64,000 nt of DNA from Corallococcus macrosporus DSM 14697. GTDB lineage: Bacteria > Myxococcota > Myxococcia > Myxococcales > Myxococcaceae. A program made the translations under genes and the position numbers. The stretch spans positions 6,544,001-6,608,000 of the forward strand of contig NZ_CP022203.1 in NCBI RefSeq assembly GCF_002305895.1, read 5' to 3'. The notes under the pieces were generated by a model that was given only the letters and a program-made list of their open reading frames with translations, did not search any database and had not been told where the DNA came from. The first letter of the stretch is position 1, and every line of letters starts with the position of its first letter. Positions 33,258 through 64,000 of the stretch are shown one piece after another.

Positions 33258-33501
33258 GGATGACAACCTCCCTTGGTCTGGGAGCGTCCTAGCAACCGGC
33301 GTGAATCCCGCGCAAACGGCTCTGCACGAAATCTGTAACTTTCCACCAAACCGGGTCGCACCAGAGGTCTCAGCCGGCACACCTGCCCCCCGCGTGTGAC
33401 ACGGCGCGTGAAGCCCCCGGCGCTCGCCATCGCCGCCTGAGTGCGATAGGCCCCACACGTTGCGCCCCACCCAGGGAGCGCGCTGGGGAGAGCGACGCAC
33501 G

Positions 33502-35115
33502 ATGAAGAAGAAGACAGCGCTGGCCCGACGTGAGGCCCTGCTCGCGTTGGCCGCGGCCCTTGCCGGCGGATGCGCCGCGAGCGCGCCAACCCCCACGCCA
33601 GCGCCGCCCTCTGGCACGGTGCGCCTGACGCTGCTGCACCTGGCGGACGTCTACCAGGTCCAGGCCGTCGAGGACGGCCAGCGGGGCGGCATGGCGCGCG
33701 CCGCGACGCTGCGCAAGCAGGTCCTCCGCGAGACACCGCACGTCCTGACGTTGATGGGGGGTGACACGCTGTCGCCGTCCGTGGAGTCGCTGGTGGAGGT
33801 GGACGGCAAGCCGCTCAAGGGGCGGCACATGGTGGACGCGTGGAATGCGTTCGGCCTGGACTACGCGGTGCTGGGCAACCACGAGTTCGACTTCGGCGAC
33901 GACGTGCTGCGCGAGCGCATCCGCGAGTCGCGCTTCACGTGGCTCGGGGCCAACGTGCGGGACGGAAAGAGCGGAGCGCTCTTCGCGGGGGTGCAGGCCA
34001 CCGCCGTGCGCGAGCTGGGCGGCATCAAGCTGGGCCTCTTCGGCGTGGTGCTTCAGGAGACGAAGGCCACCACCAAGGCGGGCAAGGACACGCACTTCGG
34101 GGACGTCTGCGAGGCGGCGCGGGGCGCGGTGGCGAAGCTGCGCGAGCAAGGCGCCCAGGTCGTGGTGGCCCTCACCCACCTGACGGCGGACCAGGACCGG
34201 GCGCTCACCCGCTGCGTCCACGTGGACGCGGTGCTCGGGGGGCATGACCACGAGGCGCTGGAGGACCGCGGCACGGGCACGCCCATCTTCAAGGTGGCGG
34301 CGGACGCGGTGGACCTGGGCCGGCTCACGCTGGACGTGGACGCGGCGACGGCCACCGTGCGGCAGGTGACGTGGCAGACGCTGCCGGTGACGCGGCAGGT
34401 GCCGGAGGACGCGGCCTTCGTCGCGGCGATGCAGCCCTATGCGACGCTGTTCAGCCGCCTGTCGGAGCGCGTGGGCCGCACCCCGGTGGCGCTGGACGCG
34501 CGGGCCTCGCAGGTTCGCACGCAGGAGACGAACCTGGGCTCGTTCGTCGCGGACGCCTTCCGCGCGGCGGCGGGGGCGGACGTGGCGCTGGTCAACGGGG
34601 GCGCCCTGCGCGCGGACACGGTGCTGCCCGCGGGCGGCGTGACGCGGAGGGACCTGCACGCCATCCTCCCCTACACGGACGAGCTGGTGGTGCTGGAGGT
34701 GAAGGGGGACACGCTGCGCGCGGCGCTGGAGAACGGCGTCAGCCTCAGCCGGGAGGACTCACGGCCGGGCCGCTTCCCGCAGGTGTCGGGGATGGCGTTC
34801 ACCTTCGACGCGGACCGGCCCGTGGGGCAGCGGGTGCTGGGCGTGAAGGTGGGCGGCAAGCCGCTGGACGCTGCGGCCACGTACCGGCTGGCCACGCTGA
34901 GCTTCCTCGCCAGCGGCAAGGACGGCTACGACATGCTGAAGAACCAGCCGTCCACGCCGGCCCGGGCGGATGGCAACTCGCCGCTGGACGTGCTGGCCGA
35001 GGCGTTCCGCACCGGCACGCCCTCGCCCCACGCCCAGGCGGAGGGCCGCATCTCCCGGCTCGGCAGCGGCGCCCTGTCACCGGACGCGCGGCAGCCACCC
35101 GCGCCGCTGAAGTAG
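33502..35115 (+). CDS. 5'-nucleotidase/UshA-family phosphoesterase lipoprotein
   Basis: A 537-residue exported protein. The N-terminus has basic residues, a hydrophobic stretch and a lipobox-like ALAGGC. The metallophosphoesterase half carries GGDTLSPS, LGNHEFDFG, ALTHLTADQD and GGHDHE; the first metal motif reads HLADVYQV where the family usually has DxHG, so the ligand histidine is replaced by Tyr. The C-terminal nucleotidase domain has NGGALRAD, LPYTDELVVLEVKG and FLASGKDGYDML. The family removes phosphate from nucleotides or UDP-sugars outside the cytoplasm. ATG 33502 has GGGGAGAG upstream. It is divergent from the GH13 lipoprotein across 244 bases in which I see no gene. Confidence 0.87.
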   Translation: MKKKTALARREALLALAAALAGGCAASAPTPTPAPPSGTVRLTLLHLADVYQVQAVEDGQRGGMARAATLRKQVLRETPHVLTLMGGDTLSPSVESLVEVDGKPLKGRHMVDAWNAFGLDYAVLGNHEFDFGDDVLRERIRESRFTWLGANVRDGKSGALFAGVQATAVRELGGIKLGLFGVVLQETKATTKAGKDTHFGDVCEAARGAVAKLREQGAQVVVALTHLTADQDRALTRCVHVDAVLGGHDHEALEDRGTGTPIFKVAADAVDLGRLTLDVDAATATVRQVTWQTLPVTRQVPEDAAFVAAMQPYATLFSRLSERVGRTPVALDARASQVRTQETNLGSFVADAFRAAAGADVALVNGGALRADTVLPAGGVTRRDLHAILPYTDELVVLEVKGDTLRAALENGVSLSREDSRPGRFPQVSGMAFTFDADRPVGQRVLGVKVGGKPLDAAATYRLATLSFLASGKDGYDMLKNQPSTPARADGNSPLDVLAEAFRTGTPSPHAQAEGRISRLGSGALSPDARQPPAPLK

Positions 35116-50055: not shown

Positions 50056-52428
50056 TCAGCGCCGGCTCCACGCCAACGTCTGGCGCAGGGGCCCGGAGCC
50101 TTCGTCCACGAACAGCAGCCGGTTGTCGCCGTCCTCCCAGTCGTACTTCCCCTGGGAGCCGGCGCGCAGGAGCTTGTACTCGAAGACGGCGCCCACGGGC
50201 AGCGACAGCGCGAAGCCGTCCGGCCCTGGACGCAGCGAATGTTCGGGCTTCCACCCGCCCAGCTCCGGCCCGCTGCCCACCAGCCGCACGGAGGGGTCAT
50301 CCACCACCAGCTGCACCGTGCGCCGCGTCCCCTTCCCCCGCCACCGCAGGCCCGCGAGCTTCGCCGCCGTGACGAAGCCTCCCGCCTCGGGGGGCGTCAG
50401 CCGCGCCAGCGCCACGTCTCCGGCGGGCACGCGGACGGTGCCCACGTCGGCGGCGGCCAGCGGCGACGCCAGGGCCACCGGCTCCAGCCGGGCGCCAGCC
50501 AGCACGTCGGGCAGCGGCACGTCCTCGGCGCTGTCACCGGCATTCACGGCGATGACCACGGCCTCGTCGGCGGTGACGCGCGCGTAGGCGAAGAGGTCCT
50601 CCCGGGCGGCGAGCACCATCGTCTCGCCACGCTGGAGGGCCTCACTGCCCCGCCGCAACGCCAACAGCCCGCCAATCCAGGAGCGCAGCGGATGGTCCGT
50701 GAAGCGCATGTCGCCCCGGTTCTCCGGCTCCTTCGCGCCCGTCAGCCCCTCCTCCGTCCCGTAGGTGAGCGCCGGCACGCCCCGCGCGGTGAGCTGCACC
50801 GCCAGCGCCCGCTTCACCCGCTCCACGTCGCCGCCGCACTCGCTCATCACCCGGGGCAGGTCGTGGTTGTCCACCATGGTCACCAGCGAGCCCGGCGCCG
50901 GGTACAGCCGGTCATTGAAGAGGATGGCGCCCAGGTGCGACGGCGCGCGCTCCCGGCAGAAGACGTCCACCAGCGCGAAGGCCAGCGGGAAGTCGAACAT
51001 CGTCCCGAAGCGGCCCTCCTTCATCGTGGTGGACAGCAGCACCGGGTCGCCGTCCAGCATCTCCCCCAGCAGCAGGAAGTCCTTCCCCGCGTGCTGCCGG
51101 AGGTCGTCGTTGTAGCGGGCCCAGAAGCTCGTGGGCATGTGCTTCACCGCGTCCAGCCGGAAGCCCGCCGGCTTCAGCACGTCCACCCACCGGCGCGAGT
51201 GCGCCAGCAGGTGCGCGTACACCTCCTCCTTCTCCACGGCCAGGTCCGGCAGGCCGTGCACATCCCCCATCACCAGCTCGCTCGGGTCGTCCCAGTCCTT
51301 GATGGGCCCCCGGCCGTGGAACCAGTCGGGCCGCTCACGCGACAGGCGCGTCTCCGGCCCCACGTGGTTGAGCACCACGTCCAGCACCAGCCGCATGTCC
51401 CGGCGGCGGAGCTCCGCCGCCAGCGCCTTCAGCAGGGCCTCGTCCCCGAAGCGGGGCTCGACCTTGCCGAAGTCCTCGACCCAGTAACCGTGGAAGGCGC
51501 CGTACCCGTAGAACGTGTCGGTCCGCATCTGGAAGACGGGTGAAAGCCACACCGTGCGGACACCGAGCTGCCGCAGCCCGTCCAGTCGGTCAATCACACC
51601 TTGCAGGTCTCCGCCGTGAAAGGCCTGCGCGTCCTTCAGGTCCACTGCACCGTCGTTCTTCGTATCGCCATTGGAGAAGCGGTCCACCATCACGAAGTAG
51701 ACCGCGTCTCCCGCCGGAGGCTCCCACGAGCCTCGGTAGGGCGCGGGCGTGGTGGGCGGCGTGCTCTTGCCCGGCTCGATGCCCGGCCCGGCCGGCGCGT
51801 TGAGGCCCGGCACCGTGCCCGAGCCACCGTCCGTGTCCGGCACCAGGAAGGGCGAGGCCAGGAAGGAGTCGAACAGCGAGCCCACCTGCCCGGCAATCTG
51901 CTGGGCCACCTCCAACTGCGCGTCGTCCTCGCGCTGCTGGTCGAACTGGAGCGCCGCGCCGTAGTCCTGGTTGACGACGGTGGGCGCCATGGGCGAGTCC
52001 GCGCGGGCGGCCGTCGTCCGCACCGAGATGTCCCACGAGAAGCGCCCGCCCACCTGGCTGAAGAACGACACCCGCGTCTCCACCAGCAGGTGCAGCGGCG
52101 CCTCCGGCGTCAGCGCCTTCATCATCTCGAAGCGGCGCTGCGAGTCGCGCACCTTCGCGTAGTAGGCGGCGTAGTCCGCGTAGGGCACCACCTCCGCGCG
52201 CAGGTTGCGCTTGGACAGCACCTCCGCGATGCGCTGCTTCAGGCCCTCCGGGACGTCCGCCACCACGCCGGGCCGCCTCGCGTCATCCCGCACATAGGCC
52301 ACGGCCACCACCGTGCCGCTGGGCGCCAGGGGCGGCGGCGCCGCGCGCGGCAGACACGCCGCGAGCGTCACCGCGGCCAGGGCCGCCGTGAGGGAGACCA
52401 CCACGCTCCATCGCTTTCTCAGAACCAT
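50056..52428 (-). CDS. Alpha-amylase-family GH13 lipoprotein with C-terminal starch-binding (CBM20-like) domain
   Basis: A 790-residue predicted lipoprotein (lipobox TLAAC, Cys25). Residues about 30-210 form a domain of unknown type (VVAVAYVRDDARRPG onward). The GH13 barrel starts at about 240 (DAVYFVMVDRFSNGD) and has the four conserved regions: DVVLNHVGP near 352, GFRLDAVKH near 422 (nucleophile), LLGEMLDGD near 451 (acid) and MVDNHD near 520. The C-terminal 90 residues resemble CBM20 (LVGSGPELGGWKPEHSL, EYKLLR, WEDGDNR). It should cut alpha-1,4-glucan at the cell surface. ATG 52428 overlaps the porin gene by ten bases, so porin and amylase are coupled. Confidence 0.9.
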   Translation of the reverse strand: MVLRKRWSVVVSLTAALAAVTLAACLPRAAPPPLAPSGTVVAVAYVRDDARRPGVVADVPEGLKQRIAEVLSKRNLRAEVVPYADYAAYYAKVRDSQRRFEMMKALTPEAPLHLLVETRVSFFSQVGGRFSWDISVRTTAARADSPMAPTVVNQDYGAALQFDQQREDDAQLEVAQQIAGQVGSLFDSFLASPFLVPDTDGGSGTVPGLNAPAGPGIEPGKSTPPTTPAPYRGSWEPPAGDAVYFVMVDRFSNGDTKNDGAVDLKDAQAFHGGDLQGVIDRLDGLRQLGVRTVWLSPVFQMRTDTFYGYGAFHGYWVEDFGKVEPRFGDEALLKALAAELRRRDMRLVLDVVLNHVGPETRLSRERPDWFHGRGPIKDWDDPSELVMGDVHGLPDLAVEKEEVYAHLLAHSRRWVDVLKPAGFRLDAVKHMPTSFWARYNDDLRQHAGKDFLLLGEMLDGDPVLLSTTMKEGRFGTMFDFPLAFALVDVFCRERAPSHLGAILFNDRLYPAPGSLVTMVDNHDLPRVMSECGGDVERVKRALAVQLTARGVPALTYGTEEGLTGAKEPENRGDMRFTDHPLRSWIGGLLALRRGSEALQRGETMVLAAREDLFAYARVTADEAVVIAVNAGDSAEDVPLPDVLAGARLEPVALASPLAAADVGTVRVPAGDVALARLTPPEAGGFVTAAKLAGLRWRGKGTRRTVQLVVDDPSVRLVGSGPELGGWKPEHSLRPGPDGFALSLPVGAVFEYKLLRAGSQGKYDWEDGDNRLLFVDEGSGPLRQTLAWSRR

Positions 52429-53915
52429 CCTTCGGCCTCGATGGCGACCACCGAGTGCCAGTGGCGCTCGGGACCGACGTAAACGTTGTACTGGTCCAGG
52501 CTGTCCACGAAGGAGTTCCCGAACGCCGCGTGCTGTGAGGAGCGCTGAAGGCCGTACAGCAACCGGAGGCTGGGGCGCGCGTAGATGCTGCGGCCCGTGG
52601 GGTTGAGCACCACACCGGCCTTGAACTGCCAGGTGTCCCGCGTGTCGCTGTCACCGAACTCCAGGCCGCGCGCGTCCGCCATGCCGTCGGTGCTGGTGAA
52701 CACCGAGTCCACGTGGTTGCGGTAGAAGTTGCCGTTCAGGCTCTTCTCGCGCGCGATGCTGCTCTCCACCAGGAGGTGGACCCGGTCGGTGAGGAAGTAC
52801 TGGAGCCGGAGCACCGTGGAGGCGATGACGCGGTTGTCCTCGCCGGCCATGATGTCGTTGTCCTTGTTGAACGAGTAGCCGGCCCACACACCCCAGAGCG
52901 CCTCCAGCTTGTCGGGGATGATGCGGATGTAGGCCTCGTTGCCGAGGTTGGCGTCGTAGCGCTCGTCGGTCTGGTCCGTGACGTACACCGTCCAATCACG
53001 GCCCCGGTAGTTCTCCATGTAGAAGGGCGTCGGGTGCCGCTTCTCGAAGGTGAGGTACATGTTGCTCCACACCAGCGGCCCGAGGTTGCCGAAGCCCAGG
53101 TAGCCCATGGCCCGGTACGACAGCGCGCTGCGCGCCTTCAGGTCCGGCACCAGGTCCTCCACGCCCGGGTTGGCCTCGAAGTAGCGCCGCACCACCTCGC
53201 GCCGCGCGAAGTCCTCGTAGTTGGTGTTGGGCGACGCGTAGAGCGCGTTCCTGTTGCCGCGCACCGCGGGCTCGTAGCCCACCTGGGCGCGGATGCCGGC
53301 CTCCAGGTGCCCGGGAATCAGCCGGTAGCGGAACGACGCGGCGCCCGTGAGCACCGTGTTGTAGTTGCGCGGGCGCAGCGTGTAGCCGCTGTCACCCACC
53401 GCCAGGAGCACGTCGTAGCGGTCGCCCTGGTACGTGCCGGACAACCCCACCGTGTCCCAGAGCAGCGTGCCGGGGCGCTGGTCGTAGATGTGCAGGTCGT
53501 TCCAGCGGTCCTCCAGCGTGCCGAGCTGCCACGTCACTCGGTCCAGCAGGATGTTGCCCGCGCGGACGAAGAGGTAGTCGGCGCTGAAGTTCACCAGCGA
53601 GCCGTTGCCGGGGTCCGCGGAGCGGAACGACGTGCCGGAGATACGGGAGTGGACCTCGGCCCAGACCTCCTGGCTCCCCGGCGTGGCCTGCAGCGCGTCC
53701 AGGCGGAGGTTGAGCTCGCCGTAGGGGCTCTCGTTGAGGAGCCGACCGTAGAGCCAGTAGTAGCCCAGCTGACCCGAACCGCCCGAGAAATCCGGGCGGG
53801 TCATGATTCGGAAGTACCCCGCGGCCCCGAAGCGATCTCTTTGAGCATCGGCCAGGGCAACGAGCGGGAGGAGCGTCAACAGAATGGCGCCGAGGCGCAA
53901 TGGCAGGACTCGCAT
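52419..53915 (-). CDS. Maltoporin-like outer-membrane beta-barrel protein
   Basis: A 498-residue exported protein with signal peptide at 1-23 (ending VALADA) and no other hydrophobic helix. The mature part alternates polar and aromatic residues in short strands (GYYWLYGRLLNE, GELNLRLDALQ, ASFRYRLIPGHLEAGIRAQVGYEP) and ends in Phe (IEAEGWF), the C-terminal signal of outer-membrane barrels. Its place between an isoamylase and an alpha-amylase lipoprotein suggests a sugar porin for maltodextrins; sequence identity to LamB is not obvious. ATG 53915 is chosen because the signal peptide starts there; a further ATG lies at 53939. Confidence 0.7.
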   Translation of the reverse strand: MRVLPLRLGAILLTLLPLVALADAQRDRFGAAGYFRIMTRPDFSGGSGQLGYYWLYGRLLNESPYGELNLRLDALQATPGSQEVWAEVHSRISGTSFRSADPGNGSLVNFSADYLFVRAGNILLDRVTWQLGTLEDRWNDLHIYDQRPGTLLWDTVGLSGTYQGDRYDVLLAVGDSGYTLRPRNYNTVLTGAASFRYRLIPGHLEAGIRAQVGYEPAVRGNRNALYASPNTNYEDFARREVVRRYFEANPGVEDLVPDLKARSALSYRAMGYLGFGNLGPLVWSNMYLTFEKRHPTPFYMENYRGRDWTVYVTDQTDERYDANLGNEAYIRIIPDKLEALWGVWAGYSFNKDNDIMAGEDNRVIASTVLRLQYFLTDRVHLLVESSIAREKSLNGNFYRNHVDSVFTSTDGMADARGLEFGDSDTRDTWQFKAGVVLNPTGRSIYARPSLRLLYGLQRSSQHAAFGNSFVDSLDQYNVYVGPERHWHSVVAIEAEGWF

Positions 53916-53953
53916 GAGCGGGCCCTGCTTATAGCGCAACCTGGCTGCCTGCC

Positions 53954-56395
53954 CTACTCCGCACGCAGGACGACGATGGTTCTTTCCGGCATGCCGTACG
54001 TGGGAGTGTTCACGGGTGACGGTGTATCAAGCCACGCGTTGCCCGTGCTCCGGCTGTTCAGGCCCGCCGTCGAGAGATACGCGGGGCTGTCGAAGTACGC
54101 CTGCGTGTCGATGAGCCGCGTCCACTTGCGGCCCTCTGGCAGGGTGAACTCCACCGCGCGCGGCTCCATGTTGATGAGCACCAGCAGCTCCGGCCCGTAC
54201 GACGCGTCGTGGTAGTGGATCATCAACTGCTTGCTGTCCCACGCCGCCTCGGTGTTCTGGGCGCTCTTCCACGCCAGCGGAGCGCCCGCGCCGTAGTCCC
54301 TGGGCGCGAAGGCGTAGGCGTGCTCCTTGCGCAGGCGGATGGCTGCCTTCACGAACTCGAACATGCGGTGACGCTCGTCACGCGCCAGGTACGCGCCCCA
54401 CTGGTACCAGTTGAAGGCGTTGTCGGAGAGCGTGGAGTAGGCGTTGTTGTTGCCAAGCTGCGTGCGCATCCACTCGTCGCCGCCCAGGATCATGGGCGTG
54501 CCGTGGCTGATCATCATCGACATGAAGGCATTGCGCATCATCTGCCGGCGCATGCTCTCCGCGCGCTCGTCGCCAATGGGGCCCCAGTTGCGGGAGCGGT
54601 TGTGCTCCTCGCCGCTGACCTTGTCGCAGAAGGGGCTGTTGGGCGTGTCGCAGCACACCGGGTTCAGCGGACCGCAGCGGTTCTGCTTCTCGTCGTACGC
54701 GAACAGGTCGTACATCGTGAAGCCGTCGTGCACGGTGACGAAGTTCATGGAGTGATACGGGCGGCGGCCGTTGCGCTCGAACCACTCCTGGCTGCCGTAC
54801 ATCAGGAAGCCGCCGTCCACCGTGCCAGGCCGGCCGCACAGCGAGCCCTCGTTGGAGTTGAGCTTCCAGCCGTCCTGGTTCATGAACGCGCGCCACCAGT
54901 CACGGAAGCGGCCGTTCCACTCGTACCAGCCGTTGCCCGGCTGCGTCTTGGAGCTGGGGAACTCGCCCAGCGGCATGCAGTACCAGCCGCCCGCGCTCCA
55001 GGGCTCCGCGATGATGCGGGTGTTGTACTTCTGGAGCACCGGGTCGTCGATGACGTCCTGGAGCACCGTGTTGCGCGGGTCGTCCCAGCGGTTGTAGTCC
55101 CCGTCGCGCTCGCCCAGGATGGGCGCCAGGTCGAAGCGGAAGCCGTCGACGTGGAGCTCCTCCACGTAGAAGCGCAGGCTGTCGATGATGAGCTTGCGCG
55201 TGGGCCGGTGGTTGGGCCGCGTCTGGTTGCCCACGCCCGTGTTGTTCCAGTACGTGCGGCGGTCCGGGTTCAGCGCGTAGTACGCCTGGTTGTCGATGCC
55301 GCGGAACGAATAGAGGCCGGCGGTCTCCGCGGGGTCCAGGGACTCCAGCGGCTCGCCGGGCATGACGTCATCCGTCTCCAGCTTCTCGCGCCACAGGCCG
55401 CCCTCGCCGGTGTGGTTGTAGACGACGTCGACCAGCACCTCGATGCCGTGGTTGTGGAGCTGCTCCACCATCCACTTGAACTCCTTGATGACCTGGTGCG
55501 GCTCCTTGAAGGCCGCGTAGGACACCTCGGGCGCGAAGAAGTTGATGGTCTGGTAGCCCCAGTACCCACCGTCCAGCGGCTTCTCGTGGATGGGCAGCAG
55601 CTCCACCGCGGTGATGCCCAGCTCAGCCAGGTACGCCGCCTTCTCACCGAAGCCGCGGTAGGTGCCCGGGAAGCGCACGCCGCTAGCGGGGTCCGCCGTG
55701 AAGCCCTTGGCGTGGACCTCGTAGACGATCATGTCCTGCCAGCCGTGGCCCTGCCAGTGCTCATCCTGGCGGTTGGCGCGCCACTGCTGCTCGGCCTCGC
55801 CCCACTGATAGTCGCCGTCCTTGACGAGCACGCTCTTGGCGGAGGCCGCGTACGTCACCTCCGTGCGGGCCGGTCCGCTGGCCGTGCTGCCCTTGCTCCA
55901 GTCATGGTCGCGGTGCAGGGCCTTGGAGTACGGATCCGTCAGCAGCTTGTTCGGGTTGAAGCGGTTGCCGTAGACGTCCGCGTCCGCCTTGAAGCCGTGG
56001 ATGGAGCCCGGGAACCAGTTCGGGTCATACTCCCAGTTGGGGCCCCAGGCGCGGAAGCCGTAGTGCTGCCCCACGCCCACGCCCTCCACGTAGACGCTCC
56101 ACACGTCGCCGTAGCGCGTCATCTCGTAGACGCGCGCGGGGCGGTTGCTCTCCGGATCCTCGAAGAGCAGCAGCTCCAGCCGGGTCGCGTTCTCCGAGTA
56201 CAGGGCGAAGTTGACCCCCTTGTCCACGTACGTGGGGCCAATCTGGCGGAGCGATTCGATGTCCTCCACCGAATAGCTCGGGGCCCGCTCCTGGCTGTGG
56301 TACAGCCGGACGTAGTCGCTCTCACTACAGCCAGTGGCGAACAGGGCGGTGGACAGCGCCGCGCCCACGAGGCGGGACATTCTGGGAGTGCGCAT
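53954..56395 (-). CDS. Isoamylase/GlgX-type debranching enzyme lipoprotein (GH13_11)
   Basis: An 813-residue predicted lipoprotein (lipobox FATGC, Cys23). A CBM48 module is followed by a GH13 barrel with isoamylase features: DKGVNFALYSENATRLELLLFE, YGFRAWGPN, VDVVYNHTGEG near 325, GFRFDLAPILGERDG near 423 (nucleophile), IIAEPWSAGGWYC near 463 (acid) and TVHDGFTMYDL near 560. It should hydrolyse alpha-1,6 branches. Cytoplasmic GlgX has no lipid anchor, so this copy works outside the inner membrane. It is first in the minus-strand operon isoamylase-porin-amylase and divergent from the ABC transporter genes. ATG 56395; the ribosome binding site is weak. Confidence 0.9.
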   Translation of the reverse strand: MRTPRMSRLVGAALSTALFATGCSESDYVRLYHSQERAPSYSVEDIESLRQIGPTYVDKGVNFALYSENATRLELLLFEDPESNRPARVYEMTRYGDVWSVYVEGVGVGQHYGFRAWGPNWEYDPNWFPGSIHGFKADADVYGNRFNPNKLLTDPYSKALHRDHDWSKGSTASGPARTEVTYAASAKSVLVKDGDYQWGEAEQQWRANRQDEHWQGHGWQDMIVYEVHAKGFTADPASGVRFPGTYRGFGEKAAYLAELGITAVELLPIHEKPLDGGYWGYQTINFFAPEVSYAAFKEPHQVIKEFKWMVEQLHNHGIEVLVDVVYNHTGEGGLWREKLETDDVMPGEPLESLDPAETAGLYSFRGIDNQAYYALNPDRRTYWNNTGVGNQTRPNHRPTRKLIIDSLRFYVEELHVDGFRFDLAPILGERDGDYNRWDDPRNTVLQDVIDDPVLQKYNTRIIAEPWSAGGWYCMPLGEFPSSKTQPGNGWYEWNGRFRDWWRAFMNQDGWKLNSNEGSLCGRPGTVDGGFLMYGSQEWFERNGRRPYHSMNFVTVHDGFTMYDLFAYDEKQNRCGPLNPVCCDTPNSPFCDKVSGEEHNRSRNWGPIGDERAESMRRQMMRNAFMSMMISHGTPMILGGDEWMRTQLGNNNAYSTLSDNAFNWYQWGAYLARDERHRMFEFVKAAIRLRKEHAYAFAPRDYGAGAPLAWKSAQNTEAAWDSKQLMIHYHDASYGPELLVLINMEPRAVEFTLPEGRKWTRLIDTQAYFDSPAYLSTAGLNSRSTGNAWLDTPSPVNTPTYGMPERTIVVLRAE

Positions 56396-56634
56396 CAGGT
56401 AGGCTGACCTCGAGGTCCGGACATGACTCGGCCCGGCAATAAAACTCCGCTTCCATAACAAGCGCCTTCCGCCCCTGACAAGGCAGGGCCCCGGTTTCGC
56501 CTCGGGGACGGCCCTTCGTCCAGTGGCTCACACCCCCGGATGACGCGGAGCGTGCAACCAAGGAGGTTTGAGGAAACGGCGAGCGTCCGGGTAAGGTGCG
56601 CGACCGTCTCCCCATAAATTTCTCCGAGCACGAC
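56396..56634. other. Divergent control region of the starch/maltodextrin locus
   Basis: The 239 bases between the isoamylase and ATPase genes should hold promoters for both. An AAGGAGG sequence at 56560-56566 lies 30 bases before an in-frame GTG at 56596, an alternative start for the ATPase. No LacI-type palindrome or convincing -10/-35 pair was found. Confidence 0.5.
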
Positions 56635-57723
56635 TTGTCCGAAGTCACCCTGAGTGGGATCAAGAAGTCGTTTGGCCAGAACCTCATCGTGAAGGGCGTG
56701 GACCTTCAGGTGGGCGAAGGTGAATTCCTGGTGATGGTCGGCCCGTCCGGGTGCGGGAAGACGACCTTGCTGCGCCTCATCGCGGGCCTGGAGCAGGTGG
56801 ACGCGGGGGAGCTGCGCATCGGCGGCGCGCGCGTGAATGACGTGCCCCCGCGTGATCGCGACGTGGCGATGGTGTTCCAGTCCTACGCGCTCTACCCGCA
56901 CATGACGGTGCGGGAGAACCTGGCCTTCGGCCTGACGCTCCGGAAGTTCCCCGCCGCGGAGATCGACACCCGGGTGCGGGAGGTGGCCGGGATGCTGGAG
57001 CTGGGCCACCTGCTGGAGCGCAAGCCCAAGGCCCTGTCGGGCGGGCAGCGCCAGCGCGTGGCCATGGGGCGCGCCATCGTCCGCCGGCCCAGGGTCTTCC
57101 TCTTCGACGAGCCCCTCTCCAACCTGGACACCGCGCTGCGGGTCCAGATGCGGGGCGAGCTGGCGCGGCTGCACCGCCGGCTGGGCGCGACGATGATCTA
57201 CGTCACCCACGACCAGGTGGAGGCCATGACGCTGGCCACCCGCGTGGCCGTCTTCAACGGCGGACTGCTCCAGCAGGTGGGTCCGCCGCTGGAGCTCTAC
57301 AACCGCCCCGCCAACCAGTTCGTCGCGGGGTTCCTCGGCTCGCCCGCCATGAACTTCCTGGAGGCGCGGCGCGAGGGTGCGCACTTCGCCGGCAAGGGCT
57401 TCACCCTGCCCTGCCCCGCGGACGTGGACACCCAGGAGGCCACGGTGCTGCTGGGCCTGCGGCCCCAGGACCTGCGCGTGGTTTCCCAGGGGCCGCTCAC
57501 CGGCACCGTGGACGCGGTGGAGCGCCTGGGCTTCGACGGGTACGCCTTCGTCAACACCGAGTCCGGCCCCGTGGCGGCGCGCTTCGACAAGGGCGTGAGC
57601 GTCGCGGTGGGTGACACGGTGCACCTGGCCCCCGTGGCGGACGCGCTGCACGTCTTCACCAAGGACGGCGCGAAGGCGCTGCGCCACCCGGAGCAGCGCG
57701 CCGCGCTGGAGGTGGCGTCGTGA
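56635..57723 (+). CDS. Sugar ABC transporter ATP-binding protein (MalK/MsmK/UgpC type)
   Basis: A 362-residue ATPase. The conserved beginning SEVTLSGIKKSFGQ points to TTG 56635 as the start; GTG 56596 would add 13 residues. Motifs: Walker A GPSGCGKTTLLR, Q-loop MVFQSYALYPHMTV, signature LSGGQRQRVAMGRA, Walker B VFLFDEPLSNLD, switch His in VTHDQVEAMTL. The C-terminal TOBE/regulatory domain (about 235-360) is typical of MalK-like proteins, which energise import of maltose and other oligosaccharides. Its GTGA overlap couples it to the fused binding protein-permease gene. Confidence 0.92.
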   Translation: MSEVTLSGIKKSFGQNLIVKGVDLQVGEGEFLVMVGPSGCGKTTLLRLIAGLEQVDAGELRIGGARVNDVPPRDRDVAMVFQSYALYPHMTVRENLAFGLTLRKFPAAEIDTRVREVAGMLELGHLLERKPKALSGGQRQRVAMGRAIVRRPRVFLFDEPLSNLDTALRVQMRGELARLHRRLGATMIYVTHDQVEAMTLATRVAVFNGGLLQQVGPPLELYNRPANQFVAGFLGSPAMNFLEARREGAHFAGKGFTLPCPADVDTQEATVLLGLRPQDLRVVSQGPLTGTVDAVERLGFDGYAFVNTESGPVAARFDKGVSVAVGDTVHLAPVADALHVFTKDGAKALRHPEQRAALEVAS

Positions 57724-59900
57724 GCCGGTGGCTCGGCCTGGCGCTGCTCGCCACGGCGCTGAGCGCGCACGCGGCCCCAGAGACGACGAAGCCCCTCAAG
57801 ATGTGGCACGCGTACCGCGGCGGCGAGGAGACGGCGCTCATCCAGGCCACCGCGCTGTTCACGGCGAAGACGGGCGTGCAGGTGGAGCTGCTCGCGCTGC
57901 CCTATGACGCCTACGCGGCCAAGCTGACCAACGCCATTCCGCATGGCGTGGGCCCGGACGTCTTCATCTTCAACCACGAGCGGCTGCGCAACTTCCACGC
58001 GCAGCGCCTGGTGGCCCCCGCCAGCGGGCTGGCGCGCGAGGACTACTTCCCCAACGCGGTGGAGGCGCTGGAGGTGGATGGCCAGGTGTACGGCTATCCC
58101 ATGTCGCTCAAGTCGCTGGCGCTCTACGTCAACACCCAGCGCGTGCCCAAGCCGCCGGAGACGACGGACGCGCTGCTGGCGATGCTGCCCGCGCTGTCGG
58201 ACGCGGACGCGGGCCGCTTCGGGCTGGCCTACGAGAGCGGTGACTTCTACTTCCACGCCGGGTTCCTCTTCGGCTTCGGTGGCGAGCTGTTCGACGCGAA
58301 CGGCCGCGCCCGCTTCGACACCGAGGGCATGGCCCGCTCCCTGGCCTTCGTGAAGGACCTGCAGGACCGGCGCCTCATTCCCCAGGAGGCCTCGGGCGCG
58401 CTGGTGAAGAGCCTCTTCAACGACGGCCGCGCCGCCATGGTCATCAGCGGGCCCTGGTTCGCCGGGGAGATTGCGCCGGACGTGGCGTACCGCGTGGTGG
58501 GGCTGCCGGTGGTGAGCGCCACGAACCTCCCCATCCGCCCCTTCCTGGGCGTGGAGACGGCCTACGTGTCGTCGCGCTCCGAACGGGCGGAGCAGGCGCA
58601 GGCGCTGGCGCGCTTCATCTCCCTGGGCGAGGCCTCACGCGTGCGGGCCACGGTGGGCCGGCAGATTCCGGCGGACGTGGCCGCGTACACGCTGAAGGAG
58701 GTGCGGGAGGATACGCTCATCTCCTCCTTCCGCGAGGCGGCCCGCCACGCCACGCCCATGCCCAACACGCTGGAGATGGCGCGCGTCTGGGAGCCCATGA
58801 AGCTGGCGCTGCGCGCGGTGCTCCAGGGTGGCACCGAGCCCCAGGACGCGGGCGCGCTGGCGGACCGGCGCTACCGCGCGCTGCACCGCGAGCGCCCGCC
58901 CGACGCCAGCCCCCTGCCCTGGCTGGGACTGGTGGGCGCCATGGCGCTGGGCGGCTCCGTCTGGGTGCTGCGGCGCCCGGCCGCGGCGCTGCCCTTCAAG
59001 CGCCGCTACCCGGACGTGGCGCAGGCGGCGGCGTACATCGCGCCCGCGGCGACCGGCGTGGCGGTGCTGGTGTTCGTCCCCTTCGCGGTGGGCCTCAGCC
59101 TGTCGCTGTTCCACCACGAGGCGGGGGAATACGCCTTCGTGGGGCTGGCCAACTTCGTGGACATCCTGGCCAGCCGCGGCTACAGCATCACCGAGCCCCT
59201 GTCCTTCTACTTCACGCTGGCCGTGACGCTGCTGTGGGCGCTGGTCAACGTGGTGCTCCACGTGAGCATCGGCCTGTTCCTGGCGCTGCTGCTGAAGGAC
59301 CCGCTGCTGAAGCTGCGGGGGGTCTACCGGGTGCTGCTCATCATCCCCTGGGCCGTGCCCAACTACATCACCGCGCTCATGTGGAAGGGCATGTTCCACC
59401 GCCAGTTCGGCGCCATCAACGGCCTGCTCGTCGCGCTGGACCTGGAGCCGGTGAGCTGGTTCACCCGCTTCTCCACGGCCTTCGCGGCCAACGTGGCCAC
59501 CAACACCTGGCTGGGCTTCCCCTTCATGATGGTGGTGGCGCTGGGCGCGCTCCAGTCCATCCCCCAGGAGCTCTATGAGGCCGCGGAGGTGGACGGCGCG
59601 AGCAAATGGACGCAGTTCCGCCGCATCACCCTGCCGCTGCTGAAGCCCGCCATGCTGCCGGCCGTCATCCTGGGCAGCGTGTGGACCTTCAACATGTTCA
59701 ACATCATCTACCTGGTGTCCGGCGGTGAGCCGGGCGGCGGCACCGACATCCTGGTGTCCGAGGCCTACCGCTGGGCCTTCCAGCGCAACGAGCAGTACGG
59801 CTTCGCGGCGGCGTACTCGGTCCTCATCTTCGTGGTGCTGCTCGGCTGGTCCGCCTTCACCCGGCGCCTGACGCGGTCGTCCTCGGAGGTGATGGGATGA
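57720..59900 (+). CDS. Fused solute-binding protein and MalF-type ABC permease
   Basis: A 726-residue protein. Residues 1-18 are a signal sequence (ending SAHA), 20-390 a family 1 extracellular solute-binding domain (KMWHAYRGGEETALIQATALFTAKTG, GPDVFIFNHERL, GYPMSLKSLALYVN, AAMVISGPWFAGEI), then a membrane segment at about 400-418 and a MalF-like permease with about six more helices. The EAA loop YEAAEVDGASKWTQFRRITLPLLKP lies near 619-643 and contacts the ATPase. In most systems the binding protein is separate; here one chain combines both, tethering the ligand trap to the channel. GTG 57720 overlaps the ATPase stop, and the MalG-type gene overlaps its end (ATGA). Confidence 0.9.
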   Translation: MSRWLGLALLATALSAHAAPETTKPLKMWHAYRGGEETALIQATALFTAKTGVQVELLALPYDAYAAKLTNAIPHGVGPDVFIFNHERLRNFHAQRLVAPASGLAREDYFPNAVEALEVDGQVYGYPMSLKSLALYVNTQRVPKPPETTDALLAMLPALSDADAGRFGLAYESGDFYFHAGFLFGFGGELFDANGRARFDTEGMARSLAFVKDLQDRRLIPQEASGALVKSLFNDGRAAMVISGPWFAGEIAPDVAYRVVGLPVVSATNLPIRPFLGVETAYVSSRSERAEQAQALARFISLGEASRVRATVGRQIPADVAAYTLKEVREDTLISSFREAARHATPMPNTLEMARVWEPMKLALRAVLQGGTEPQDAGALADRRYRALHRERPPDASPLPWLGLVGAMALGGSVWVLRRPAAALPFKRRYPDVAQAAAYIAPAATGVAVLVFVPFAVGLSLSLFHHEAGEYAFVGLANFVDILASRGYSITEPLSFYFTLAVTLLWALVNVVLHVSIGLFLALLLKDPLLKLRGVYRVLLIIPWAVPNYITALMWKGMFHRQFGAINGLLVALDLEPVSWFTRFSTAFAANVATNTWLGFPFMMVVALGALQSIPQELYEAAEVDGASKWTQFRRITLPLLKPAMLPAVILGSVWTFNMFNIIYLVSGGEPGGGTDILVSEAYRWAFQRNEQYGFAAAYSVLIFVVLLGWSAFTRRLTRSSSEVMG

Positions 59901-60745
59901 ACCGCCCCTCTCGCTTGAAGCTGGCCGCCATCCACGCCGGGCTGACGCTCCTGTGCATGGCCACGCTCTACCCGGTGCTCTGGGTGGTGAAGATGGCGCT
60001 GTCCCCCACGGACGGCCTGGCGCTCACCGCCAACCCCTTCCCCGACACCGTCACGCTGGAGCACTTCCGGCAGGTGCTCTCCACCACGGACGCGGCCGGG
60101 CGGTGGGTGTTCGGCCGGCAGCTCCTGGCGAGCATCGTCGTGTCCGGCGCCACCACGCTGGTGGGGCTGACGCTGGCGGTGTCCGCGGCCTACGCGCTGT
60201 CGCGCTTCCGCTTCCCCGGCAAGGAAGGCGGGATGCAGGCGCTGCTGGTGACGCAGATGTTCCCGGCGACGCTGATGATGGTCCCCATCTACAGCATCCT
60301 CCAGAAGCTGCACCTGCTGGACAGCCTCACGGGGCTCGTCCTCGTCTACGCCACCACCGCCCTGCCCTTCTGCATCTGGAACCTCAAGGGCTACTTCGAC
60401 ACGCTGCCGCGCGAGTTGGAGGAGGCGGCGGTGATGGACGGGGCCTCCACCTTCCAGGTGTTCGTACGGGTGGTGCTCCCGCTGGCGCGGCCCGCGCTGG
60501 CGGTGACGGCGCTCTTCTCCTTCATGACGGCGTGGAACGAGTTCATCCTCGCCGCCACGCTGCTCAACGACCCAGCCCGCTTCACCCTGCCCGTCGCGCT
60601 CCAGCGCTTCGTCGGCGAGCACAAGGTGGAGTGGGGCAAGTTCGCCGCGGGGGCGCTCATCGTCTCCGCGCCGGTCATGGCTTTGTTCTTCGCTCTCCAG
60701 AAACACCTCGTCGGCGGGTTGACCGCTGGCGGCGTCAAGGGGTGA
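59897..60745 (+). CDS. MalG-type sugar ABC transporter permease
   Basis: A 282-residue inner-membrane protein with six predicted helices, the partner channel subunit to the fused MalE-MalF protein. The EAA loop is EEAAVMDGASTFQVFVRVVLPLARP at about 175-199, followed by PALAVTALFSFMTAWNEFILA, standard for MalG/UgpE. The N-terminus (LKLAAIHAGLTLLCMATLYPVLWVVKMALSP) is the usual first helix and short periplasmic loop. ATG 59897 overlaps the preceding stop by four bases, and the following lipoprotein start overlaps this stop by one base (TGATG), so four genes form a single coupled operon. Confidence 0.92.
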   Translation: MNRPSRLKLAAIHAGLTLLCMATLYPVLWVVKMALSPTDGLALTANPFPDTVTLEHFRQVLSTTDAAGRWVFGRQLLASIVVSGATTLVGLTLAVSAAYALSRFRFPGKEGGMQALLVTQMFPATLMMVPIYSILQKLHLLDSLTGLVLVYATTALPFCIWNLKGYFDTLPRELEEAAVMDGASTFQVFVRVVLPLARPALAVTALFSFMTAWNEFILAATLLNDPARFTLPVALQRFVGEHKVEWGKFAAGALIVSAPVMALFFALQKHLVGGLTAGGVKG

Positions 60746-63700
60746 TGTCGATGTCGTCTCGCTGTCTCCATGCTCTCTTCCTCGTCCTGCCTCTGTTGGT
60801 CATCGCCTGTGACGGCGACTCCGGCGGAGGTCCTGCTCCCAGCGACAACGCGCCCGTGGTTCGCGAGGTCCAGCCCTCGGGTGGCCCCGTCGCGGGCAAC
60901 ACCCTCATCAACGTCTACGGCTCCGGCTTCAAGGAGGGCGCGAAGCTCTTCTTCGGTGAGCAGGAGGCGCTGCGAGTGGTGGTGGTCAACTCCAACCGCA
61001 TCTACGGCTACACCCCCACGGCGAGCTCCGGCGCGGTGGACGTGCGCGTGGTGAACCCCGACAACGCCTACGGCACCCTGGTGGGCGGCTTCACCTACGA
61101 AGGCGCGCCGTCGGCGAACATCGACCAGGCCGAGGTGCTCAACGGCAACGTGGACGCGGTCAGCAGCGGCCAGCCGGTGGGAGCCACCGTGCGCGGCGCC
61201 GTCACTGTGTCCGGCATCACCCGTGGCACGGGCCAGGGCGGCGGCATCCGCGCGCAGGTGGGCTTCGCCCCAGCGGACGCGGAGCTGCTCAACCCGGAGA
61301 GCTACACCTGGGAAGAGGCCACCTATGAGGGTGACTCGGACAGCCGCGAGGCGGACATCTACCAGGGCACCGTGCTGCTCCAGCCGGCCATTGGCGGTGA
61401 GAGCCGCGAGTGGGTCATCACCATGCGCTTCTCCATCGACAACGGCGCCACCTGGGTGATGGCGGACGGCGACGGCAGCGCCAACGGCGTGTCGGCGGAC
61501 ATGCTGCGCCGGGTGTTCATCTCCCGGCCGCGGGTGGACTACTGCAAGCTGGGCCCGGACGGGAACAACGGGCCGGTCAACGTCTTCTACCGCCCCGGCG
61601 ACACCACGCTCGTGAAGGTGGCCGGCCAGGTCTACGCCGCTGGCGTCACCCAGGGCGGTGGCGCGGGCTCGGGACTGGTCGCGCAGTTGGGGTACGGCCC
61701 CGCGGACTCCGACCCGAGCAACTCCAACGCGTGGACGTGGGTGGGCGCCACGTACAAGACGGACCACGGCAACAACGACGAATGGGAAGCGGACCTGCCC
61801 AACCCGGGCACCGAGGGCACCTGGCGCATCGCCTTCCGCTTCAGCATCAGCGAGAACGCGTGGCGCTACTGCGACAGTGACGGCGTCAACGACAGCAACG
61901 AGGGGAACCTGACCTTCAGCCTGGAGCGGCTGGGCACCCTCACCGTGGGCGACGAGGCCCCGAAGCCGCCGATTGCGTGGTGCAAGATTGGCCTCGACCG
62001 GACGCCGCCGGAGGTCATCAACTACACGACCACGCAGACGACGGGCCTGAAGACGGTGTACGCGCAGGTCCACCTGCCGGGCGTTACGGACCGCGAAGGC
62101 GCGGGACCGGGCCTGTCGGGCCAGCTCGGCTGGGGCCCCGCGGGTGAGGATCCGCGCACCTCGCCGCTGTGGAGCTGGTCGACGAAGCTCACGTTCGACC
62201 AGGACAACTTCGAACACAACGACCAGTGGAAGGGCACGCTGTCCAACCCGGCCATCAACGGCGAGTACCGCTACGCGGTGCGCTTCAACCACGACGGTGG
62301 CCCCATCCGCGTGTGCGACGGCAACGGCGTGGATGACGGTGGCCAGGACTTCGAGCTGGACCAGCTCGGCACGCTCAACGTGACGGGCCAGCCCGTCATC
62401 CCGCGCGTCATCGGCTACTGCAAGCTGGGGCCGGATGGGAACAACACCCCGGAGACGGTGACGTATACGACGGCCACCACGCCCAGCCGCCGGGTGGAGG
62501 CGCAGGTGTTCGTGCAGGGTGTGACGAACGAGGCGGGCCAGGGTGAGAACATCGTGGGGCAGCTCGGCTGGGGGCCCGCCGGTGAGGACCCCACCACGTC
62601 CTCACAGTGGAACTGGTCCACCAGCGGCGAATACGCGTCGGATATCGGCGCCAATGACGTGTACGAGGCCACGCTGCCCAACCCGGGCGTGGTGGGCAGC
62701 TACCGGTTCGCCTACCGCTTCCAGGTGAACGACGGCGAGTTCATGTACTGCGACGCGGACGGCAACAGCCCCAATCCGGAGCAGAGCTTCAACGTGGACC
62801 TGGCGGGAACGCTGACGGTGACGGAGGCACAGGCCCTCAATGCGATCGACTACTGCAAGCTGGGGCCGGACGGGAACAACACGCCCCAGTCGCTGGCGTA
62901 CACCGCCGGTGAGGCGGCCAGCCATGTCATCGTCGCGTACGTGAGCGTGACGGGCCTCACCGACACCACCGAGGGCGAGGTCGCGGCCATCGTGGGCCAG
63001 CTCGGCTGGGGGCCCGCGGGCGAGGACCCGGCCACGTCCGCCGAATGGAACTGGGACACGACGGCTGGGTTCGAGGAGGACTTCTACGCCAACGACCGGT
63101 ACGAGGCCACGCTGCCCAACCCGGGCGTGGTGGGCAGCTACCGGTTCGCCTACCGCTTCCAGGTGAACGGCGGCGAGTTCATGTACTGCGACGCGAACGG
63201 CAACAGCACCAACCCGGAGGACAGCTTCAACGTGGACCTGGCGGGCAGCCTGGCGGTGAGCGAGGACCCGGACCCCGAGCCGACGGACAGCTACTGCCGG
63301 CTGCAGAGCGTGAGCGGCACGACGGTGGGCAGCGGTGACACCGTCACCGTGGTGGGCCGGGTGCATATCCCGGGCGTCACCGCGGGCAATGGCCCGGGCG
63401 CTGGCGTCCAGGTGCAGGTCGGCGTGGGCGCGGTGGACGCCAATGCCTCCACCCAGGCGGCCGCGTTCACCTGGAAGGCCGCGGAGTACACCGGCGAGGC
63501 CGACGGTGAGGCGGACACGGACGAGTTCTCCACCACCGTGACGCCCGCCTACACCGGCGACCGCGCCGTCAGCCTGCGTTACTCCACGGACGGCGCCTCG
63601 TGGACGTACTGCGACAAGGACGGCAGCAACGTGGGTGGGTACACGCTGGGCCAGCAGCACGCCCTCACGGTGGGCAACCATTCGGAGATTGGCTACTGCA

Positions 63701-64000
63701 ACCTCCAGTGGCCGTTCGAGATGCCCGAGGGCGCCGAGGGCGGCGCGCGGACCGTCTATGGGCAGCTGTGGGCGGCGGACGTCACGCCGGGCGGCGGACA
63801 GGGTGCTGGCGTCGTCGCGGAGCTCGGCTACGGCCCCGCGAGCAGCGACCCCGGCGTCTCGGGCTGGACCTGGGTAGCGGCGACGTACCTCAGCGATGAG
63901 GGGGAGAACGATCAGTACGCCGTGGACCTGCCTGCGGGCGTACCGGCAGGGACGTCCTACGCGTACCGCTACTCGCTCAACGGCGGGCCGTTCTGCTACG
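60745..64000 (+). CDS. Very large repeat lipoprotein with IPT/TIG domain (3' end outside window)
   Basis: The frame is open from ATG 60745 to the window end (1085 residues visible). The N-terminus has a signal with the lipobox VIAC (Cys22). Residues about 36-115 form an IPT/TIG immunoglobulin-like domain (PVVREVQPSGGPVAGNTLINVYGSGF). Then come repeats of about 145 residues, each opening with YCKLGPDGNN or a variant (about 61535, 61975, 62412, 62848, 63289, 63691) and containing GVTxxxGxG, GQLGWGPAGEDP, W-x-W and YRFAYRFQVNxGEFMYCDADG. Tryptophans and a paired Cys per repeat suit a secreted beta-sandwich. Being coupled to the sugar importer, it may capture alpha-glucan at the surface; this is inferred. 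Confidence 0.85.
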   Translation, partial: MSMSSRCLHALFLVLPLLVIACDGDSGGGPAPSDNAPVVREVQPSGGPVAGNTLINVYGSGFKEGAKLFFGEQEALRVVVVNSNRIYGYTPTASSGAVDVRVVNPDNAYGTLVGGFTYEGAPSANIDQAEVLNGNVDAVSSGQPVGATVRGAVTVSGITRGTGQGGGIRAQVGFAPADAELLNPESYTWEEATYEGDSDSREADIYQGTVLLQPAIGGESREWVITMRFSIDNGATWVMADGDGSANGVSADMLRRVFISRPRVDYCKLGPDGNNGPVNVFYRPGDTTLVKVAGQVYAAGVTQGGGAGSGLVAQLGYGPADSDPSNSNAWTWVGATYKTDHGNNDEWEADLPNPGTEGTWRIAFRFSISENAWRYCDSDGVNDSNEGNLTFSLERLGTLTVGDEAPKPPIAWCKIGLDRTPPEVINYTTTQTTGLKTVYAQVHLPGVTDREGAGPGLSGQLGWGPAGEDPRTSPLWSWSTKLTFDQDNFEHNDQWKGTLSNPAINGEYRYAVRFNHDGGPIRVCDGNGVDDGGQDFELDQLGTLNVTGQPVIPRVIGYCKLGPDGNNTPETVTYTTATTPSRRVEAQVFVQGVTNEAGQGENIVGQLGWGPAGEDPTTSSQWNWSTSGEYASDIGANDVYEATLPNPGVVGSYRFAYRFQVNDGEFMYCDADGNSPNPEQSFNVDLAGTLTVTEAQALNAIDYCKLGPDGNNTPQSLAYTAGEAASHVIVAYVSVTGLTDTTEGEVAAIVGQLGWGPAGEDPATSAEWNWDTTAGFEEDFYANDRYEATLPNPGVVGSYRFAYRFQVNGGEFMYCDANGNSTNPEDSFNVDLAGSLAVSEDPDPEPTDSYCRLQSVSGTTVGSGDTVTVVGRVHIPGVTAGNGPGAGVQVQVGVGAVDANASTQAAAFTWKAAEYTGEADGEADTDEFSTTVTPAYTGDRAVSLRYSTDGASWTYCDKDGSNVGGYTLGQQHALTVGNHSEIGYCNLQWPFEMPEGAEGGARTVYGQLWAADVTPGGGQGAGVVAELGYGPASSDPGVSGWTWVAATYLSDEGENDQYAVDLPAGVPAGTSYAYRYSLNGGPFCY
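62662..62807 (+). repeat. 146-bp near-identical repeat, copy 1
   Basis: This stretch differs from 63100-63245 by only about six bases. It encodes the second half of one domain of the large lipoprotein, from YEATLPNPGVVGSY to NVDLAG. Confidence 0.85.
63100..63245 (+). repeat. 146-bp near-identical repeat, copy 2
   Basis: Second copy, exactly 438 bases (146 codons) downstream of the first. Flanking parts of the two domains are clearly more divergent, so the match is local. Confidence 0.85.

Follow-up and report, generated by a model that had tools for sequence, protein, structure and literature searches.

A stretch of 64,000 nucleotides from the genome of Corallococcus macrosporus DSM 14697 (NZ_CP022203.1, bases 6544001-6608000 of an 8,973,512-bp single-contig genome of the Myxococcus genus group), referred to below as the window, carries seven neighboring genes that probably form a system for the acquisition of maltodextrins, the fragments of starch or glycogen (probability about 0.8). 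The genes are arranged in two divergent strings. The one on the minus strand encodes, in the order of transcription, an isoamylase, a LamB-type porin, and an alpha-amylase, and is followed by hemE, while the one on the plus strand encodes a MalK-type ATPase, a fusion of MalE with MalF, a MalG permease, and a large lipoprotein built of repeats. The original prediction, made from the DNA letters, had proposed a dedicated alpha-glucan locus at this place, and the sequence and the predicted structures agree with it: (i) all seven genes encode members of the expected Pfam and NCBIfam families, (ii) the catalytic motifs of both GH13 enzymes are intact, (iii) the porin is predicted to have a LamB fold, and (iv) the importer is closest to MalE, MalF, and MalG. 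The same genes, moreover, are conserved as a unit. Most parts of the locus are of known types, and its unexplored part is the repeat lipoprotein.

Two GH13 lipoproteins with intact catalytic motifs

The amylase matched the Pfam family of GH13 enzymes (PF00128, E-value of 2.3e-48) and, at its C-terminus, the starch-binding domain CBM20 (PF00686, 1.6e-6), its closest relatives in the Protein Data Bank (PDB) being Anoxybacillus-type alpha-amylases (4e2o, 5a2a, and 5a2b). The isoamylase, a protein of 813 residues, matched GH13 and CBM48, and its closest solved relatives were TreX/isoamylase enzymes. The GH13 motifs read DVVLNH, GFRLDAVK, LLLGE, and VDNHD in the amylase and DVVYNH, GFRFDLAP, IIAEPW, and VTVHD in the isoamylase. 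A stretch of about 200 residues (approximately 30-230), which separates the lipobox of the amylase from its GH13 domain, matched no Pfam family, although it can be aligned across close orthologs.

An isoamylase from the same genus, MIsA of Myxococcus sp. V11, is likewise a GlgX/TreX-like GH13 debranching enzyme, with activity on amylopectin and pullulan (PMC11544908). However, it consists of 712 residues, and no signal peptide was mentioned in its description, whereas the enzyme of the locus is a longer lipoprotein. We therefore rejected the identity of the two proteins and judged MIsA to be a paralog, probably a cytosolic GlgX.

Both enzymes and the repeat protein begin with a lipobox (TLAAC in the amylase, FATGC in the isoamylase, and LVIAC in the repeat protein). 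In orthologs with an aligned N-terminus, a loose lipobox pattern was present in 23 of 28 amylases, 25 of 35 isoamylases, and all 12 repeat proteins, which agrees with the lipoprotein basis that had been suggested for the system. None of these lipoboxes is followed by Lys at position +2, and only few by Ala at position +7. In M. xanthus, the former residue marks lipoproteins of the inner membrane and the latter those of the matrix (Bhat et al., PMC3222651), so the amylase, the isoamylase, and the repeat protein are likely located in the outer membrane.

The porin belongs to the LamB family

The porin scored 32 bits against the Pfam LamB family (PF02264; cut-off 25.1, E-value of 1.7e-7), and 17 of the 19 aligned porin sequences, that of the window included, matched this family at E≤0.01. 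Since neither the porin sequence nor the porin profile found a match in PDB at E≤1, the assignment rests on Pfam and on the fold. An AlphaFold2 (AF2) model built from the 19 sequences had a mean predicted local distance difference test (pLDDT) score of 76.6 and contained 18-19 strand segments, and the protein ends with an aromatic residue (EAEGWF). Foldseek ranked maltoporins first for this model, and VIA-align gave Z-scores of 26.4, 26.1, 24.6, 23.8, and 23.0 with maltoporins and the sucrose porin ScrY, whereas no other porin exceeded 18.3, which leaves a gap of about 5-8. A general porin or an alginate-type channel was rejected on account of these lower scores. Thus, what had been called a porin-like barrel can be specified as a member of the LamB family, with a predicted 18-stranded barrel most similar to maltoporin and ScrY. 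A family-profile search of the genome found no other LamB-type gene.

An importer with the binding protein fused to the permease

The ATPase retains the Walker A, Walker B, and LSGGQ motifs, and both permeases retain the EAA loop. The best NCBIfam matches were MalE for the solute-binding part of the fusion, MalF for its permease half, and MalG for the second permease, all below the equivalog cut-offs, while the ATPase scored above the cut-off of the UgpC subfamily and below that of the MalK equivalog; consequently, these models do not fix the exact sugar. The binding protein and the MalF core are encoded in one reading frame, as predicted. The fusion protein consists of a signal sequence, a maltodextrin-binding domain (residues ~27-385), a linking transmembrane helix (399-417), and a MalF core with the EAA loop and, as read from a hydropathy plot, six transmembrane helices, and it lacks the large periplasmic P2 loop of MalF. 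A periplasmic MalE domain tethered by a single helix would be a self-consistent topology.

Such fusions are already known. Residues 26-380 matched PDB entry 6ffl (E-value of 1.4e-24), a 'maltose/maltodextrin transport permease homologue', which we take to be the MalE domain of the MalE-MalF transporter of Bdellovibrio bacteriovorus, and it is reportedly in this bacterium that a transporter of this kind was characterized. According to a review (PMC7756565), Licht et al. (2019, Res Microbiol 170:1-12) described a maltose/maltodextrin transporter in which a single MalE domain is fused to MalF and which forms transport-competent supercomplexes. The predicted importer of the present locus shares this architecture but differs in being set among a LamB porin, two GH13 lipoproteins, and the repeat lipoprotein. 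Fused relatives are widespread: each of the 25 Myxococcus genomes that were sampled contains the fusion, and so do many other Myxococcota; the fusion protein of a named M. xanthus relative is 95% identical to that of the window; and 80 named loci matched both its binding-protein and MalF parts, among them those of an Oligoflexia, Sumerlaeota, and a Spirochaetales metagenome-assembled genome (MAG).

In some sister genera within the family, malE and malF are two separate genes rather than a fusion. The sister-genus loci L075, L076, L077, and L080 represent another maltose locus with a separate malE and a malF frame of about 685 residues, and the genomes in which they lie gave no strong LamB match, which offers a natural comparison of a fused with a free binding protein.

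Conservation and layout of the locus

The full order hemE-amy-lamB-iso / malK-malEF-malG-repeat was kept in all five same-genus loci examined and in all six loci of the Myxococcus group (L081-L085 and L092), and because of this recurrence we do not ascribe it to chance. The set without the repeat gene occurs in many other Myxococcota, and in more distant ones iso, lamB, amy, malK, malEF, and malG follow one another on one strand (e.g. L099, L105, L118, L123, L148, and L152). Outside the genus, too, the repeat gene is situated close to the locus. The original prediction would have been refuted if the gene set were not conserved together, and it survives this check. When all sampled genera were tallied by hand, LamB was present in 19 of 31 genera with the fusion and in 2 of 47 without it (Fisher p ~3e-8), and arrays of at least three repeats in 19 of 30 versus 1 of 40 (p ~1e-8); as the tallies ignore kinship, these p-values overstate the co-occurrence. 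The record titles of L082, L089, L138, L150, and L158 do not seem to fit the DNA: 'Comamonas' stands for sequence that is 84-97% identical along the entire locus, and 'Elusimicrobia' (71%), 'Bifidobacterium breve', and 'Klebsiella pneumoniae' for MAG contigs with myxobacterial-type loci.

The genes and the region between the two strings are listed in Table 1. As had been proposed, the strings are divergent and tightly coupled: amy and lamB overlap by 10 bp, lamB and iso are separated by 38 bp, malK and malEF as well as malEF and malG overlap by 4 bp each, malG and the repeat gene by 1 bp, and iso and malK are spaced by 200 bp. The original prediction had placed the locus at positions 50056-64000, of which the start holds, while the end is merely the edge of the window, since the last 71 bases of the repeat gene lie beyond it.

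Table 1 Features of the putative maltodextrin acquisition locus (positions in the window)
Feature	Position	Strand	Basis
Lipoprotein alpha-amylase, GH13 and CBM20	50056..52428	-	Pfam, PDB relatives, catalytic motifs, lipobox
LamB-family maltoporin, 498 residues	52419..53915	-	Pfam, AF2 model, structure comparison
Lipoprotein isoamylase, GlgX/TreX-like GH13 debranching enzyme with CBM48	53954..56395	-	Pfam, motifs, lipobox
Putative divergent promoter region with short conserved blocks	56396..56595	.	Intergenic alignment
MalK-type ATPase (nucleotide-binding domain, OB_MalK, TOBE_2)	56596..57723	+	Pfam, NCBIfam, motifs
MalE-MalF fusion	57720..59900	+	Pfam, NCBIfam, hydropathy, motifs
MalG permease	59897..60745	+	Pfam, NCBIfam, EAA loop
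Repeat lipoprotein, 1108 residues	60745..64071	+	TIG domain, repeats, lipobox

In the alignment of the intergenic region, an imperfect inverted repeat (CCAACC..GGTTTGG, ~56545-56575), which adjoins the ribosome-binding site of malK, and the block TTCCATAACAAGCG (~56450), close to the isoamylase start, are conserved and possibly represent an operator and a promoter. The true start of malK may be a better conserved TTG codon at ~56636, about 40 bp downstream of the called one. Another GH13 gene, whose product has CBM48 and Alpha-amylase_C domains and resembles branching enzymes, is found in the window about 17 kb away (31347-33617).

The repeat lipoprotein

The least known part of the locus is the large repeat protein, which matches no described family. 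Behind its lipobox lie a TIG domain and seven Ig-like repeats of about 140 residues each, as foreseen for a giant repeat lipoprotein, with a conserved Trp and a CDxDG motif; orthologs within the genus have 6-9 repeats, and seven of the nine copies of the repeat in the genome reside in this one gene. None of 67 repeats tested against Pfam gave a significant match, and the repeat family matched PDB sequences only at the level of chance. The model of a single repeat (pLDDT of 97.5) is an Ig-like beta-sandwich, whose best structural match was domain N of GlgE (5lgw; Z-score of 9.2, root-mean-square deviation of 2.9, 103 aligned residues, and 14% identity). The N-terminal parts of two further glucan enzymes, a cycloalternan-forming enzyme (8.6) and Thermoactinomyces alpha-amylase 2 (7.2), were among the other matches. 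Matches outside the glucan enzymes included the Ig domain of the P. gingivalis deiminase (8.6) and many immunoglobulins (7-7.5), and the structure tool warns that Z-scores near 8 may reflect a mere common arrangement. Two repeat-bearing sequences matched the Pfam family GlgE_dom_N_S below its cut-off (E-values of 0.013 and 4e-4), and a profile-profile comparison of the repeat with GlgE domain N gave a weak probability of 18.6% over 22 columns, which we did not use as proof. The repeat resembles GlgE domain N and the N-terminal Ig-like domains of GH13 enzymes in its predicted fold and in the two subthreshold matches; however, the former is a domain of an enzyme, whereas the repeat forms a tandem array in a lipoprotein. 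Judging from the modeled fold, it is plausible that the repeat lipoprotein binds glucan.

The repeat also occurs singly, at the C-terminal end of Big/LTD/TIG lipoproteins elsewhere. A second lipoprotein of 1721 residues with Big, fn3, and LTD domains carries one repeat, and its gene and that of glycogen phosphorylase are some 4 kb apart (L172:4357-9519 and L212, genome positions 7041355-7043490). In other Myxococcota (L184:2060-5122 and L185:2964-5936), repeats and TIG domains are combined in large lipoproteins, whose N-termini show by eye a CBM20/48-like motif (MNSWTP..DDG..GD..AGDGVYT), for which Pfam gave no CBM match.

Discussion

The enterobacterial maltose regulon comprises LamB, MalEFGK2, and MalS, and in Klebsiella, the pullulanase PulA is a surface lipoprotein of this regulon. 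The locus described here has in common with it a maltoporin, a MalE/F/G/K importer, GH13 enzymes in the envelope, and a debranching enzyme in the form of a lipoprotein located outside the inner membrane, but differs in that MalE is fused to MalF, the P2 loop is missing, MalT is absent from the locus, the debranching enzyme is of the isoamylase/GlgX type rather than a pullulanase, the amylase is a lipoprotein with CBM20, and the repeat lipoprotein is added. The original prediction had drawn a parallel with the Sus system of Bacteroidetes. Its statement that a porin and an ATP-binding cassette (ABC) importer take the place of SusCD is correct, whereas the likeness in logic was overdrawn. The lipoprotein amylase and the multi-domain lipoprotein beside an outer-membrane channel do recall SusG and SusE/F of Bacteroides (SusA-G); however, Pfam revealed neither the SusC TonB-dependent transporter nor the SusD lipoprotein among the seven genes, and glucan binding by the repeat protein is only proposed. 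Membership in the Sus systems was therefore rejected, and as the channel is a maltoporin-family barrel, the locus is a Mal system of the E. coli type with lipoprotein enzymes more than a Sus system.

From these data we infer what the locus acts on, that its lipoproteins are exposed at the surface, that its genes are induced, and what the repeat lipoprotein does, and we propose the following mechanism. The amylase and the isoamylase, as outer-membrane lipoproteins, would cleave an alpha-glucan outside the cell or in its envelope at the alpha-1,4 and alpha-1,6 bonds, and the repeat lipoprotein, as an outer-membrane accessory, would bind glucan or prey material and keep the substrate close to the enzymes. 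The resulting linear maltodextrins would diffuse through the LamB-family porin into the periplasm, where the single tethered MalE domain would pass them to MalF-MalG-MalK2 for import. They could then be used, since elsewhere in the genome there are genes for a glycogen phosphorylase, for two GH77 proteins, for GlgE, and for additional GH13 enzymes; in the cytosol, the phosphorylase, the GH77 glucanotransferases, and other GH13 enzymes (GlgE and presumably TreS) would convert them to glucose-1-phosphate, trehalose, or glycogen.

Several points weigh against this proposal. No regulator is encoded among the genes at the locus, and we found no expression or biochemical data for it. The searched text of papers dealing with the outer-membrane proteins and the vesicles of M. 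xanthus mentions neither amylase nor maltose, and that of a spore transcriptome paper (PMC2875238) mentions maltose only as a product of TreS. As the LamB family also includes ScrY, the sugar passing through the barrel is deduced from the context. The orientation of the lipoproteins, toward the surface or toward the periplasm, cannot be read from their sequences. Furthermore, M. xanthus is regarded as a predator for which amino acids and fatty acids are the food and carbohydrates do not support growth (PMC2875238), and a transporter survey assigns to it only six ABC-type sugar transport proteins (PMC3924187). Given this reported lack of growth, the flux through the system may be minor, or it may serve development.

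Three other explanations were considered. The GH13 lipoproteins could face the periplasm from the inner leaflet of the outer membrane and trim maltodextrins as E. coli MalS does, with LamB admitting ready-made maltodextrins from secreted amylases or from lysis of prey; the lipobox and the lack of Lys at +2 (PMC3222651) do no more than place the proteins in the outer membrane or the matrix, and other GH13 genes are present in the genome, but the CBM20 domain of the amylase and the greater usefulness of a debranching enzyme on polymers too big for a maltoporin speak, though not decisively, for the surface, and we regard a periplasmic orientation as possible but not probable. Whether the same machinery handles prey glycogen, or glycogen and trehalose from lysing siblings, rather than plant starch from the environment is a question on which we see even odds: the host is a myxobacterium, and M. 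xanthus reportedly fails to grow on carbohydrates and accumulates glycogen and trehalose during sporulation (PMC2875238), yet no expression data were found that tie the locus to predation or development, and the locus also occurs in numerous uncultured lineages whose mode of life is unknown.

The repeat lipoprotein, in turn, might be an adhesin or a general surface protein that happens to lie in the operon and has no affinity for glucan. The single C-terminal copies in other lipoproteins, the weak profile match to GlgE domain N, and the closeness of general Ig folds to it in Z-score are in line with this explanation, while the tracking of the fused importer by repeat arrays across genera, the overlap of the repeat gene with malG in Myxococcus, and its position near the locus in other genera argue against it, so that we give it slightly less than an even chance. 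Going beyond the maltodextrin system as such, one could suppose that the protein founds a new alpha-glucan-binding family of tandem GlgE-N-like Ig domains in the outer membrane and that, with the lipoprotein amylase and isoamylase feeding a LamB porin, Myxococcota convergently evolved a surface starch capture free of SusCD; we consider this extended proposal rather unlikely.

These findings describe a real, conserved alpha-glucan acquisition locus, which may play a role in predation or development. It is present throughout the genus and is a target that can be deleted to learn what part, if any, the uptake of alpha-glucans plays in growth, predation, or development. It also provides, in a genetically tractable species, an importer that naturally has one binding protein per transporter, and its repeat is a candidate for a new glucan-binding domain.

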